In this document: piece after piece, positions 2,748 through 7,010 of the stretch
Layout of the letters: each line of letters opens with the position of its first letter
Position numbering within the stretch: position 1 is the stretch's first letter
Virus record (IMG/VR): IMGVR_UViG_3300006079_000007
Coordinates: 1 to 28,638 of that record
Length of the DNA: 28,638 bases
Reading direction: 5' to 3' (one strand)
Source: a virus
Notes under the pieces: model-generated
Told to the model about the DNA's origin: nothing
Seen by the model: only the letters and a program-made list of their open reading frames with translations
Database searches by the model: none
Position numbers and translations under genes: made by a program

Positions 2748-3717
2748 TTTTTTTCTCTAATTTTATTTTTGTCAATACTTTAACCTTTGCACCACGATTG
2801 GCGTTCTTTATTATTTCCAATAAAGTTTTAATCTTACCATTCCTTACTATTGCATCATTTACATCTTTGATATCATCGTCCCATTCGGGAATACTAACAC
2901 TAAACCCATGTTTAATAGCATCATCAATCAACTTCAACCCTGCCTTATCCTGGTCAGGTACCACAATAATATCACGGTACAGCCGTTTCAATTGATATGC
3001 TTGTTCCTCACTTATTTTATTATGCAGTACTGCCAATCCATCTATACTTATAGCATCCAATATACCTTCTACTACTATTGCATATTTCCATTTATCATCC
3101 TGTAAATCCAACCCAAAAATATATCCAGGTTGCTGTTCATTTATATACTTTGGTGTATTATTATCCAAGAACCTAGATGTGTATCCGACTATTTTCCCCT
3201 CGTTGGTATAAGGTATTATAATTCTATTCTTGTTTCGTATTCCATCACTAGGTGTTATCATAAACGCATATTGATTGTAGTCTAATCCTCTACCCTTCAA
3301 ATAATCAACAAATTTACTATCACTGTACGTGATAAGCCTAGCGTTTTTGGGTAACAATATTTCATTGAATGATATATTAAAACCACGTGAATTAATTTGT
3401 TCAGAAATTACATCATTTATACTTTTATGTCTAAGGCTATCTAAATTAAACCAGTCAATCTCAGTTTTACTTACACCTAACCATCCTAATAACTCTCTTG
3501 CCTTGATACCGACTGGTTTCCCCAGCGTGAACCCTGTTTTGAAATTGCAATTGAAACAGTGATATGACCAATCATGTTCGTTACTTAATAAGATACCACC
3601 GCGACCGCGTTTATCTGATGTCTCGTCATTGTGAATGCAACAAACAGCATTGAACGATATCCACCCACTAGGTGATTGTTTTCTTTTTTGAGGAAGAAAG
3701 GATAGTATATCTAACAT
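2734..3717 (-). CDS. 61: DNA primase, T4 gp61 / DnaG family
   Basis: This protein makes the RNA primers for lagging-strand synthesis in the gp41-gp61 primosome. An N-terminal zinc ribbon is visible: Cys26/Cys27 and His29, then CFNC at 54-57. The catalytic TOPRIM domain shows VVEGILDA (Glu217-Gly218) and the acidic VVPDQDKAG (Asp256, Asp258) that binds Mg2+. The length of 327 aa is close to T4 gp61 (342 aa). It starts at ATG 3717, at the edge of a 375-bp non-coding stretch. Tandem TATAAT-like sequence lies only 8-18 bases upstream and there is no clear Shine-Dalgarno, so how it is expressed is unclear. The C-terminus is Lys-rich, and the helicase gene overlaps its end. Confidence 0.95.
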   Translation of the reverse strand: MLDILSFLPQKRKQSPSGWISFNAVCCIHNDETSDKRGRGGILLSNEHDWSYHCFNCNFKTGFTLGKPVGIKARELLGWLGVSKTEIDWFNLDSLRHKSINDVISEQINSRGFNISFNEILLPKNARLITYSDSKFVDYLKGRGLDYNQYAFMITPSDGIRNKNRIIIPYTNEGKIVGYTSRFLDNNTPKYINEQQPGYIFGLDLQDDKWKYAIVVEGILDAISIDGLAVLHNKISEEQAYQLKRLYRDIIVVPDQDKAGLKLIDDAIKHGFSVSIPEWDDDIKDVNDAIVRNGKIKTLLEIIKNANRGAKVKVLTKIKLEKKIERV

Positions 3718-3790
3718 TTTACATATTATATTATACTGTTATATGTTAAGTTATATAATTTTACTGAATAGCATAAAATGGTTATGTTAT

Positions 3791-3824
3791 AATAAAAAGA
3801 CTCTTAGGCGTACACACGAGAGTC
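3791..3824 (-). terminator. Rho-independent terminator after the SGNH hydrolase gene
   Basis: Read on the minus strand, GACTCT pairs with AGAGTC (3819..3824 with 3799..3804). An inner CGT-GTGT-ACG hairpin lies inside, and TTTTTATT follows at once. The position, about 270 bases past the SGNH stop and before the primase start, would separate these two transcription units. Confidence 0.65.
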
Positions 3825-3849
3825 GGACATGGTGAAAAGGAACAAATAC

Positions 3850-3866
3850 AATGACAAAGTGTCATT
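3850..3866. repeat. Perfect inverted repeat, 7-bp stem
   Basis: AATGACA and TGTCATT flank a 3-base centre (AAG). The near-palindrome could be a short RNA hairpin or a protein-binding site. No T run follows on either strand, so a terminator is unlikely. Confidence 0.5.
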
Positions 3867-3902
3867 CAAAAAACCTTTAGTACTAACACAATATATTTGC
3901 AC

Positions 3903-3938
3903 TTAGCGTTGTGCTACAGCAGTGCTTCGCTAATTTTT
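3903..3938 (+). terminator. Terminator-like hairpin pointing along the plus strand
   Basis: TTAGCG (3903..3908) pairs with CGCTAA (3928..3933) and is followed directly by TTTTT (3934..3938) on the plus strand. No plus-strand gene lies upstream, so it may end an antisense or small RNA that starts in this intergenic stretch. Confidence 0.4.
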
Positions 3939-4092
3939 AACAATCAGTAGTAAAGAGTATCGAGGAAGATGTTTTTTACAATAATTGTTGTGCTACTCTA
4001 TTTCTAGGAACGTTGAGTAAAACGCAGTTCTGTGTACAAAATGACAATGAACATCACAACTAGAAGCACACAAAGTTGTTACAAAGTATACT

Positions 4093-4794
4093 TCATTGCG
4101 ATTGGTTGTCAATGGTTTTTATCAATGATTTTGCAATTATTTCATGACCATCTTCATTTGGATGACCACCCCGTTTATAATTGTTATCTAGAATACTTCT
4201 AGTATTAATATCATATACGCTTGGGATTCCATCTATTCTAGTTTTTGATAATAAATTAAACTGAAATACAGGAATTTTATACCGTGAAGATACACCATCA
4301 AACAACCTCACTGTTGTTTCATAATTTAATCTATACAACTCATCGGATGCAGTCATATTTAAGTAGTGTTTATGTAAATCAAACCAACCCCTATCAACAT
4401 TTGGACCTGCACTATCCAACCATTGTGCATGTAAATAATTATTCCATGGTGGGTCATCACGACCTCTTTTATGATTCGGATTGTACCAACTAACTCTACT
4501 TTCTTCAGTTAATCCCACAACTATCAATGAATTGTTAATATATTCATTCGTGTGGTTATTAAGCCACCATATTAAGTTCCATTGCATTGACTGTAAACTT
4601 GAGCCAGGGAATGATAGATTTTCTTGCCGTAGGTTGTAATGTTTTGCGAGAACTCCAGTATAACAGTGCTCTAATCGATATTTGTCATTCTGTGTATAGT
4701 GACTGGATATCCCCTGTTTTTTCAATTCTGGGTCTAGTAACTCATCACCGAATGCCCAACTGCATCCAAACGATACAATGTGTTGTGTACTAAT
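4093..4794 (-). CDS. SGNH/GDSL-type hydrolase-like protein, probable AUU start
   Basis: Esterase-type fold of the family common in marine phages. Block I is FGCSWAFGDEL, with Ser12 as the likely nucleophile, and block V is GGHPNEDGHE near the C-terminus. The block I residues lie upstream of the first standard start, TTG at 4725. In that frame a TAG stop comes immediately before ATT at 4794, and there is no ATG, GTG or TTG between. A GGAG at 4802..4805 sits 7 bases before this ATT, an ideal ribosome site. I therefore start the gene at AUU (233 aa). Without this extension the nucleophile is lost. A substitution of ATG to ATT, by mutation or assembly error, is the main alternative. The substrate is unknown; a surface glycan ester is a guess. 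A second family member lies at 22590..23336. Confidence 0.75.
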   Translation of the reverse strand: MSTQHIVSFGCSWAFGDELLDPELKKQGISSHYTQNDKYRLEHCYTGVLAKHYNLRQENLSFPGSSLQSMQWNLIWWLNNHTNEYINNSLIVVGLTEESRVSWYNPNHKRGRDDPPWNNYLHAQWLDSAGPNVDRGWFDLHKHYLNMTASDELYRLNYETTVRLFDGVSSRYKIPVFQFNLLSKTRIDGIPSVYDINTRSILDNNYKRGGHPNEDGHEIIAKSLIKTIDNQSQ

Positions 4795-4832
4795 CTATTT
4801 ACTCCAATATTATATTCATCTTTGGATATTCT

Positions 4833-5381
4833 TCAGTAATTTTTTGGATTAATTTTAAATACTTCACCACTAACTTGTAATGTATCTGGTAAATTATCCT
4901 TATCCATATTATCTGCACCATCAAGATACAGTTTTCCCTTTACAGTTAGGTTACTGGGTAAATCCACCATAGGTGAATTATGCAAACCCAAATCACCATT
5001 GATTGTTAGATTATCGGGCAATTTAACAATTAAAGAATTACCAATATATAAACTACCACCCAATATAGATAACACATCATCGGGGATAGACGTTACCTCA
5101 GTGTTCTCAACCCACAAATCACCATCAACAACCAATGTATTTGGTATATCTCTTAATGGTACATCACATATATAAAGGTTGCCATTGACTGTTAAGTTTT
5201 CAGGTAATGAAGTGATATTTGTAGAATTAATTAATAAATTACCATTGACTGTTAAGTTTTCAGGTAATGACATTAATGTAGTATTCCAAAAATTCAAATC
5301 CCCATTAACAGGAGATTCAACAGAGAAACCACCCAAAATTAGTTCATTCGCTTTCTTAACATCCATTATCTTAATACCCAT
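4833..5381 (-). CDS. Leucine-rich-repeat solenoid protein, 182 aa
   Basis: About seven tandem repeats of roughly 20 residues fill residues 20-170, each with the pattern LPxNLTVNGNLxLxxTxIxx. They form a short leucine-rich or beta-solenoid scaffold for protein binding. There is no signal peptide, membrane segment or catalytic domain. Two adjacent repeats share 29 identical bases (5182..5210 and 5242..5270), a sign of recent tandem duplication. The start at ATG 5381 overlaps the phoH stop by 11 bases. An alternative is the ATG at codon 6, just after that stop. A longer relative lies on the other side of phoH. The function is unknown; a role in binding host proteins is inference. Confidence 0.8.
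   Translation of the reverse strand: MGIKIMDVKKANELILGGFSVESPVNGDLNFWNTTLMSLPENLTVNGNLLINSTNITSLPENLTVNGNLYICDVPLRDIPNTLVVDGDLWVENTEVTSIPDDVLSILGGSLYIGNSLIVKLPDNLTINGDLGLHNSPMVDLPSNLTVKGKLYLDGADNMDKDNLPDTLQVSGEVFKINPKNY
5182..5270 (-). repeat. Tandem 60-bp LRR-coding repeat
   Basis: The 29-base segment 5182..5210 recurs exactly at 5242..5270, a 60-bp period equal to one 20-residue LRR unit. Exact DNA identity, beyond what the protein needs, points to recent duplication or gene conversion. Confidence 0.85.
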
Positions 5382-6084
5382 CTTTGTGTATCATGTATTT
5401 GGCTTTAATGTAGGCTTTAACTATCCCAGAACGAACAATGTCCTCTACGCCAAATTCATTCATAGAAAACCAATTGGGCATTGATTCGAGCACATTAACA
5501 AACTTGCGTACATCCTTATCCTTGTCTTTAGAGAAGTCTGTTTGCATGAAATCTCCACAAAATAATGCTTTGGAATTTCTCCCAAGTCTAGTTAAAACAG
5601 AATCTGATTCATGTGATGTGCAATTTTGGAATTCATCTAATATAACAATACAGTTATCTAATGTAATGCCACGCACATAGGACGTAATCATAAAACGTAC
5701 TATACCGTGTTTAACGAGAATTTCATATGCGTCATCACGACCAAACAACTCTGAACATACCTTTCTGTATGGTAATTCGTATACTTGTGATTTTTCGTTT
5801 AAATCCCCTGGTAGAAACCCAATATCTCTAGTAGGTACAGCACTACGTACTATGACAATCTGACTTAAATCTGTTCCGCCATTTATTAATTCATCAAATG
5901 CTTTAAATAGACTTAAGAATGTTTTACCTGTTCCTGGGTATCCCATTAATATTTGGGATTTTCCTCCATCATAATTATCAAAGAACATTCTTTGTGCATC
6001 TGTTATTGGGCTAATATCTGCTAACTTTAAATGCAATTTCGAAACAATACTTGCTCCTGCATTTTGCTTCTTTTTCTTTGCCAT
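5371..6084 (-). CDS. phoH: PhoH-like P-loop ATPase
   Basis: The central ATPase domain shows Walker A GYPGTGKT at 48-55, the family signature RSAVPTRDIGFLPGD around 80-94, Walker B IVILDEFQN at 146-154, and the GDxxQ-type motif FCGDFMQTD at 176-184. The length of 237 aa matches the PhoH-like proteins widespread in marine phages. In bacteria PhoH belongs to the phosphate-starvation regulon and relates to RNA helicase or nuclease modules. The phage role is not settled, and no Pho box is evident here. The start at ATG 6084 has a good AAGGA eight bases upstream. It sits between two LRR genes and overlaps the start of the downstream one, so the three are probably cotranscribed. Confidence 0.93.
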   Translation of the reverse strand: MAKKKKQNAGASIVSKLHLKLADISPITDAQRMFFDNYDGGKSQILMGYPGTGKTFLSLFKAFDELINGGTDLSQIVIVRSAVPTRDIGFLPGDLNEKSQVYELPYRKVCSELFGRDDAYEILVKHGIVRFMITSYVRGITLDNCIVILDEFQNCTSHESDSVLTRLGRNSKALFCGDFMQTDFSKDKDKDVRKFVNVLESMPNWFSMNEFGVEDIVRSGIVKAYIKAKYMIHKDGY

Positions 6085-6098
6085 TTATTATTTCCTTG

Positions 6099-7010
6099 TT
6101 AAAATTTAGAATTCTTTATAAAATCTTTAAACTTGTCAGTTGATAATGAATTTAAATAATCTTCTACATCTTCCCTTTCTAATTCAGAATCACTATGAAT
6201 AGTATATAGTCCTGGATTTGATTGCATTCTTGCTCTCATGCGCATCCCGCCAATATTATGATGTAATTCTCCAGTAGTTGATGTTAATGAACCTACTATC
6301 TCTTCAGCACCAAACTCATAAAATGTATCTATTGATATTCTATTATCTGCATCAAAGTCATTCATCTCGTACGTAAATACTATATGGTAGTCATACTTAA
6401 ATAAATTGTTAGAAGATGAATTACCCAATAACTCATCAATGAGTAATTTTCCATTAATAGATGTGTTATTAAAAATGTTGGTTAATTCGCTTCTTTTATC
6501 TTCCACTGACTCGTCGTTTTTTAATATATTTAGAATATTATCAGATAGCGGTGTATTATTGATGATTAAGTTCTTAACTGTTAAGTTATCTGGTAATGTT
6601 TCAATGGGTGTACCACTGAGGACTAAATTCCCACCAACAGTTAAGTTATTACCAAGTGATTGGATTTGTGTATTTCTGAGGTCTAAATGCCCACCAACAG
6701 TTAAGTTATCTGGTAATGTTTCAAACGAGGTATTACTAATATCAAGAGTCTGTTTAACTGTTAAGTTATACGGTAACTCTATTATTGGCGTTCCGCGTAA
6801 ATTCAAATTTAATACTGTTAAGTTAGGCGAATCTATTCTCGATATATTAGTCTTGGAAAGGTCTAATGACAAATTACCAGTTTTACCTATTACTACCTTA
6901 CCATTCAATGAATCACCATTAAGAAGCCTCTTTACTGCATCTTCCTGAAATATTACTTTATCGAATCCAATTAATTCATCTGGATTTCTGTGGAGTTTAT
7001 ATAAATTCAT
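6099..7010 (-). CDS. Leucine-rich-repeat protein with C-terminal domain, 303 aa
   Basis: Residues 35-165 hold about six 20-residue repeats of the form LPDNLTVGGNLxLxxTxIxx, like those of the 182-aa protein beyond phoH. A separate non-repeat domain follows (about 165-303), with segments such as KYDYHIVFTYEMNDFDADNR and an acidic helical end. No known domain is recognised in that half. There is no signal peptide or membrane helix. The first residues (MNLYKLHRNPDELIGF) are specific to this copy. The ATG at 7010 lies right after the stop of the virion-protein gene with no clear ribosome site, so translation may be coupled. A bipartite binding-plus-effector design is possible but not shown. Confidence 0.8.
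   Translation of the reverse strand: MNLYKLHRNPDELIGFDKVIFQEDAVKRLLNGDSLNGKVVIGKTGNLSLDLSKTNISRIDSPNLTVLNLNLRGTPIIELPYNLTVKQTLDISNTSFETLPDNLTVGGHLDLRNTQIQSLGNNLTVGGNLVLSGTPIETLPDNLTVKNLIINNTPLSDNILNILKNDESVEDKRSELTNIFNNTSINGKLLIDELLGNSSSNNLFKYDYHIVFTYEMNDFDADNRISIDTFYEFGAEEIVGSLTSTTGELHHNIGGMRMRARMQSNPGLYTIHSDSELEREDVEDYLNSLSTDKFKDFIKNSKF
6616..6708 (-). repeat. Tandem 60-bp LRR-coding repeat
   Basis: Positions 6616..6648 and 6676..6708 are identical at 31 of 33 bases, with a 60-bp period equal to one LRR unit. Further related copies flank them, including a shared 'gttaagttatctggtaatg' near 6582 and 6702. Confidence 0.8.

Follow-up and report, generated by a model that had tools for sequence, protein, structure and literature searches.

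Comparative evidence for a conserved AUU/AUC start codon in an SGNH-like hydrolase gene of T4-like aquatic phages

A gene for an SGNH/GDSL-like hydrolase in the phage sequence analyzed here (IMG/VR record IMGVR_UViG_3300006079_000007, positions 1 to 28,638; we refer to this whole stretch of 28,638 nt as the window) very probably starts with AUU in place of AUG, and its nearest relatives appear to use AUU or AUC at the same site. Judging from the comparison of sequences, this putative start is both conserved and specific to the hydrolase gene among the phage ORFs compared. Diverged relatives keep the exact codon, which argues for a real, conserved weak start. We consider it likely that the explanation holds as a whole, i.e., that a conserved AUU/AUC start keeps the hydrolase at a low level and sensitive to IF3.

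The gene comprises 233 codons plus TGA on the minus strand, with ATT as its first codon, and its stop-free translation (ISTQHIVSFGCSWAFGDELL...) has 233 aa (Table 1). The minus strand reads ATG AAT ATA ATA TTG GAG TAA A TAG ATT AGT ACA across the start region and continues with CAA CAC ATT GTA TCG TTT GGA TGC AGT TGG. The first in-frame ATG, GTG or TTG is the TTG at 4725 (codon 24), which would give an ORF of 210 aa and lies 12 codons past the nucleophile Ser12, the FGCSW block being codons 9-13. An earlier note on this DNA, made from the sequence alone, had pointed out that a TAG directly precedes the ATT (4794-4792), that no ATG, GTG or TTG stands ahead of the catalytic block in this frame, and that 7 nt separate a GGAG (4805-4802) from the ATT; all of this can be read from the sequence. 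The extent that it gave to the gene, 4093-4805, does contain the hydrolase gene, but the start codon is at 4794, and the bases up to 4805 take in the Shine-Dalgarno sequence. The short ATG frame that it described upstream does end in TAA, but begins at 4819 and not at about 4816; this six-codon frame is probably a chance occurrence. Frameshifting offers no rescue, as the note had argued for a +1 shift: from the short frame, a shift of +1 or of -1 meets the TAG at 4797-4795. This TAG thus excludes an upstream start in, or a frameshift into, the hydrolase frame.

Table 1. Features of the hydrolase gene and its surroundings in the window
Feature	Position	Strand	Basis
SGNH/GDSL-like hydrolase CDS, putative ATT start	4093..4794	-	Open frame, purifying selection, predicted fold
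Putative AUU start codon	4792..4794	-	ATT/ATC in nearest relatives; ATG/GTG at the same position in the wider family
In-frame TAG adjoining the start codon	4795..4797	-	Counterpart TAA ATC in L007, L008, L011
Shine-Dalgarno GGAG, 7 nt before AUU	4802..4805	-	Duplex energy -5.9 kcal/mol
Six-codon ATG frame ending in TAA (4801-4799), overlapping the Shine-Dalgarno	4799..4819	-	Sequence
FGCSW nucleophile block (Ser12)	4756..4770	-	Invariant in 24/24 aligned homologs
His211 of the HPNExGH block (catalytic His)	4162..4164	-	Invariant in the alignment
First standard start, TTG (residue 24), rejected as true start	4723..4725	-	ORF list, alignment, model
Repeat protein (SLPENLTVNGNL-type repeats) between phoH and hydrolase	4833..5381	-	Absent there in L016, L022, L032, L034
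PhoH-like ATPase	5371..6084	-	phrog_170 E=1.4e-68; directly precedes the hydrolase in several AUU/AUC relatives

Relatives of the gene were collected from IMG/VR by a translated search (ten loci), a second scan with an alignment (52 loci) and a third with a broader alignment, which gave 52 distinct ORFs with the FGCSW block (L198 among these may be a paralog). Contigs from two other samples (L002 and L003) show 0 mismatches to the window over 702 nt plus 100 nt upstream. L004 and L006 (both 70% identity), L007/L008 (69%) and L011 (64%) carry an ATT or ATC at this site, 5-6 nt downstream of GGAG. No ATG, GTG or TTG occurs from FGCSW up to the first stop in the window or in these five loci, nor, in L016, L022, L032 and L034, between the upstream stop and FGCSW; apart from that of the window, seven diverged lineages (59-70% protein identity) among these loci lack a standard start. 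The ATT/ATC is immediately preceded by a stop in four of the sequences (window, L007, L008 and L011), which excludes an earlier in-frame start there. In all 10 distinct start-less sequences, which represent at least eight lineages, ATT or ATC stands exactly eight codons before FGCSW; given the frequency of these triplets in the window (0.058), eight such occurrences by chance would have a probability of ~1e-10. The AUU start proposed in the earlier note is borne out by this comparison: the identical contigs and the diverged relatives that lack a standard start carry ATT or ATC at this site, never ATG, and no homolog begins at TTG 4725.

Across the 52 distinct ORFs of the family, position -8 is ATG in 24, GTG in three and ATT/ATC in 10, and the N-terminal register M-x-I-K-x-x-V-S/A-FGCSW is largely kept; ATT/ATC thus occupies the ordinary start position of the family. 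The remaining ORFs start at -7 (eight), at -9 or -10 (five) or further up (two). When AUU/AUC use is mapped on the protein tree, two to three changes are counted, and since outgroups use ATG, AUU/AUC is most simply regarded as derived. At L009/L010 and L027-L029, the only standard start (an ATG at -16 or a GTG at -13) lies inside the 3' end of the upstream gene; these starts are in different registers, the true start is uncertain, and it could also be non-canonical. L039 (same contig as L197; 1810-2530) is a close relative of the L004 gene with an ATG 11 codons before FGCSW, and its frame breaks downstream, through either an assembly indel or decay of the gene.

We observed different rates of nonsynonymous and synonymous change along the N-terminal codons of nine AUU/AUC genes. 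Codon 1 has pN 0 and pS 0.75, whereas pN/pS is 0.65 for codons 2-5 and 0.12 for codons 6-23. A fixed first codon, drifting codons 2-5 and a constrained core is the pattern expected of a start codon, and the protein stretch upstream of the first standard start (codons 6-23) is under purifying selection. Synonymous sites are near saturation among these genes. ATA was not seen at codon 1, which is not significant, as the internal Ile codon 6 is also ATT or ATC only. Because G is found at just 15% of fourfold sites, the lack of reversion to ATG is suggestive and is no proof against AUG.

The predicted structure is consistent with a protein that begins at the ATT. In the AlphaFold model (pLDDT 90.3), an alpha/beta fold, strand 1 is formed by residues 5-9 and is followed by Ser12, so that a start at AUU would yield a complete fold. 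In structure it comes closest to GDSL/SGNH esterases, CE2 carbohydrate esterases and TesA, with E values as low as 3e-5 and TM-scores that mostly fall in the range 0.35-0.5. Among 24 aligned homologs, Ser12, Gly64 (block II) and His211 (block V) are invariant; Thr96 is invariant where the block III Asn (GxN) is expected (an assignment made by eye), and no acid is conserved at position 208, three residues before the His, where the catalytic Asp of DxxH would lie. The earlier note had named the product an SGNH hydrolase, and the predicted fold agrees with that; as the block III Asn and the DxxH Asp are not conserved, we call it SGNH-like. It thus shares with GDSL/SGNH esterases (TesA, EstA, CE2) the predicted fold, the block I Ser and the His of the HPNxxGH block, and differs from them in these two residues and in falling below Pfam detection: the window protein has no match to PF13472 or PF00657, and some relatives match weakly (best E 0.0016). 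No homolog was found in annotated phage genomes at E 1e-5 (one weak partial match has E 0.6), nor in GTDB genomes. Going by the predicted fold, one guess is that the hydrolase may deacylate a surface glycan or lipid.

The unusual start seems peculiar to this gene. In an all-against-all comparison of stop-to-stop ORFs from 28 contigs or contig pieces (463 testable ORFs), only the hydrolase family, represented on 14 contigs, shows conserved coding sequence (23-73 codons) ahead of its first standard start. The other strong flags that we inspected trace to upstream genes whose 3' ends overlap, to hairpins of intrinsic terminators and to frame breaks in single contigs; one flagged ORF among the 463, G016 (L073), is only partly explained. 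The starts of the 30 other genes of the window are ATG in 28, GTG in one and TTG in one. We therefore rejected phage-wide non-AUG initiation, both because 28/30 window genes begin with ATG and because the inspected flags are ordinary. Among these flags, a conserved intrinsic terminator (AAACCCAAGTTTTTTAACTTGGGTTTTTT type), found at 7550-7620 of L007 and on the contigs of L010, L016 and L027, reads as a conserved peptide, GFFYDLN, and so mimics an unstarted ORF. Frame breaks confined to single contigs affect a DnaB-like helicase (L006, 7104-8436) and a nucleotidyltransferase (L075, 365-1115), and the L073/L074 contig has a frame break in a gene where 79 codons run without a start (minus strand, roughly 3521-4100 counted from the contig end).

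The carriers of the AUU/AUC hydrolase are a group of T4-like aquatic phages. The window phage encodes replication proteins of the T4 type (DnaB-like helicase, primase, UvsX, UvsY, single-strand binding protein, polymerase and TerL), and its TerL and UvsX are nearest to those of large myoviruses such as PA5oct and Atu_ph07 (52-68% identity). The surroundings of the hydrolase gene vary: the phoH stop lies exactly 1 nt before the ATT/ATC in L016, L022, L032 and L034 and 63 nt from the hydrolase start in L011, and in the window, L004, L006, L007 and L008 phoH and the hydrolase gene are separated by another gene. In every AUU/AUC phage PhoH ends in HKDG[FY], an ending that leaves no room for the overlapping ATG used by those sisters whose PhoH ends in HD[DG]GY. 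In the window, two SLPENLTVNGNL-type repeat proteins (4833-5381 and 6099-7010) flank phoH, and L004 has a protein of similar make-up between its phoH and hydrolase genes. A sigma-70-like promoter, TTGACA-16-TATACT (11/12; 4085-4112, minus strand), overlaps the 3' end of the hydrolase gene and precedes a 375-nt gap, after which comes the primase gene. This gap (3718-4092), where no gene was called, contains an inverted repeat, TTAGCG...CGCTAA (at about 3933-3903), and TATAATATAAT, which is just ahead of the primase ATG and seems conserved among relatives.

Ribosome binding differs along the same lines. Pairing with the anti-Shine-Dalgarno sequence reaches -5.9 to -8.4 kcal/mol in the window, L004, L006, L007, L008 and L011, with a median of -2.15 kcal/mol for 30 genes of the window; the four loci adjacent to phoH pair weakly (-3.6 to -4.2 kcal/mol) and have a stop-N-start junction in place of a strong Shine-Dalgarno. 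Two routes fit these data, namely de novo initiation with a strong Shine-Dalgarno and termination-reinitiation after phoH. We found no Rfam match in the window that would point to structured RNA at the start (fold z-score 0), and no tRNA, hence no phage tRNA with an altered anticodon, in the window or the ten loci, all of which are fragments.

Most other readings of the locus conflict with these observations. TTG 4725 is the sole standard start near the 5' end, and the gene might therefore encode a shorter protein from that codon or be a pseudogene. We rejected this start because strand 1 and the nucleophile would be lost; moreover, the constrained codons 6-23 lie upstream of it, the nucleophile is invariant in 24 homologs, and in L007, L016 and L032 the next standard start is found only 66-73 codons in, all of which makes a short or decayed form highly improbable. 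We give as little credence to programmed frameshifting, readthrough or bypassing from the upstream gene. Such a route might be suggested by the four relatives in which the gene begins 1 nt after phoH, but the stop adjoining ATT/ATC in the window, L007, L008 and L011 ends any shift into the frame upstream of it, and upstream genes vary among lineages. Reassignment of TAG was also considered and rejected, since TAA TAT TGG AGT AAA precedes the TAG and no standard start would be gained. Initiation at the second Ile codon is very improbable: codon 6 is ATT or ATC in 10/10 sequences, but in the window its distance to the Shine-Dalgarno is 22 nt, codon 1 of the frame is where the wider family begins, and a start at codon 6 would cut the modeled strand 1. 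Finally, every sequence used comes from a metagenome assembly, but the ATT/ATC is shared by three identical assemblies and by seven further diverged lineages, and the chance that this codon results from faulty sequencing or assembly is negligible.

If AUU/AUC is the start codon, as we believe, the ordinary fMet initiator tRNA would pair imperfectly at the third base of AUU (AUC in some relatives), which would replace the AUG/GUG of the family at the same position. IF3 rejects near-cognate codons. Going by other systems, in which such starts give about a tenth of the AUG level, the weak start may keep hydrolase synthesis low and may make it sensitive to host IF3. A well-placed Shine-Dalgarno would compensate in the window, L004, L006, L007, L008 and L011, and in L016, L022, L032 and L034, with the start 1 nt past the phoH stop, ribosomes that end phoH probably reinitiate at the AUU/AUC. 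Excess IF3 in E. coli lowers both non-canonical initiation and Shine-Dalgarno-less reinitiation, and impairs M13 (PMC2268962). On the strength of these analogies, functional attenuation of the hydrolase by the weak start seems to us somewhat favored. Some sister lineages use ATG or GTG elsewhere, and the weak start is thus not indispensable in the family. A further reading, in which the near-cognate start serves as a timer or dose control that reads the stringency of host initiation (IF3 activity, or reinitiation after phoH), is distinctly doubtful; if true, production of the hydrolase would be confined to times of lowered IF3 discrimination or to late infection.

The start may instead be tolerated and not selected, the ancestral AUG having been lost, e.g., when the phoH C terminus changed, and the weak codon kept by drift while coupling or a strong Shine-Dalgarno kept translation sufficient. 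This fits the two to three changes on the tree, the PhoH ending that bars the overlapping ATG in all AUU/AUC phages and the different start positions of six sisters. However, AUG is normally under strong purifying selection, with a change to AUU at 1/61,358 ancestral AUG starts in prokaryotes (PMC5622118), and here the weak codon has outlasted 30-40% protein divergence and the insertion of different upstream genes. We regard mere tolerance as unlikely, if still a serious candidate.

Conserved near-cognate starts are known in bacteria for infC, pcnB, cvfC1, ccpN and sigR (PMC13009471, PMC5472188), and a switch from AUG to AUU is very rare in evolution (PMC5622118). The earlier note had compared the hydrolase with infC, whose start codon is AUU in E. 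coli, AUC in Streptomyces (PMC5472188) and AUA in S. aureus (PMC13009471). The likeness is right in kind, as infC too has a conserved near-cognate start with AUU and AUC in different lineages, but autoregulation is unsupported: IF3 regulates its own gene, whereas the product here is a hydrolase, and no IF3 gene (PF00707) is present in 21 records of the window phage and its relatives, all of which are fragments. Simple attenuation, probably sensitive to the IF3 of the host, would be the better analogy, with pcnB, cvfC1 and sigR as the models. In E. coli pcnB, AUU limits translation of an enzyme gene (Binns and Masters 2002, as cited in PMC13009471), but that gene is cellular, whereas AUU and AUC alternate among relatives of the phage gene. 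S. aureus cvfC1 (AUU) and ccpN (AUA) likewise combine a conserved non-canonical start with a strong Shine-Dalgarno (PMC13009471); they are bacterial, with experimentally mapped starts and an extended Shine-Dalgarno, whereas the phage gene is known from comparison only. Reporters for such conserved AUU/AUA starts in S. aureus reach, in poor medium, ~10% of the expression seen with AUG (PMC13009471). Streptomyces sigR, which is repressed by IF3, resembles the hydrolase in having a rare start codon that sets a low protein dose (PMC5472188), but its codon is GUC, it encodes a stress-response regulator, and its IF3 dependence has been shown, whereas we infer it for the hydrolase. The apparent stop-N-AUU/AUC junction in some relatives is additional to these known cases. 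In the open-access literature that we searched, with subscription papers outside its scope, we found no AUU/AUC start in a phage, and we claim no priority.

Because gene finders as a rule accept just ATG, GTG and TTG, the hydrolase would be trimmed past its nucleophile or missed, and the same may happen to other genes. As a conserved phage gene with AUU or AUC at its putative start, the hydrolase offers a natural test of the reasons for keeping a weak start, the ATG-using sisters being built-in controls, and it may show that the dose of a phage gene can depend on the IF3 of the host.
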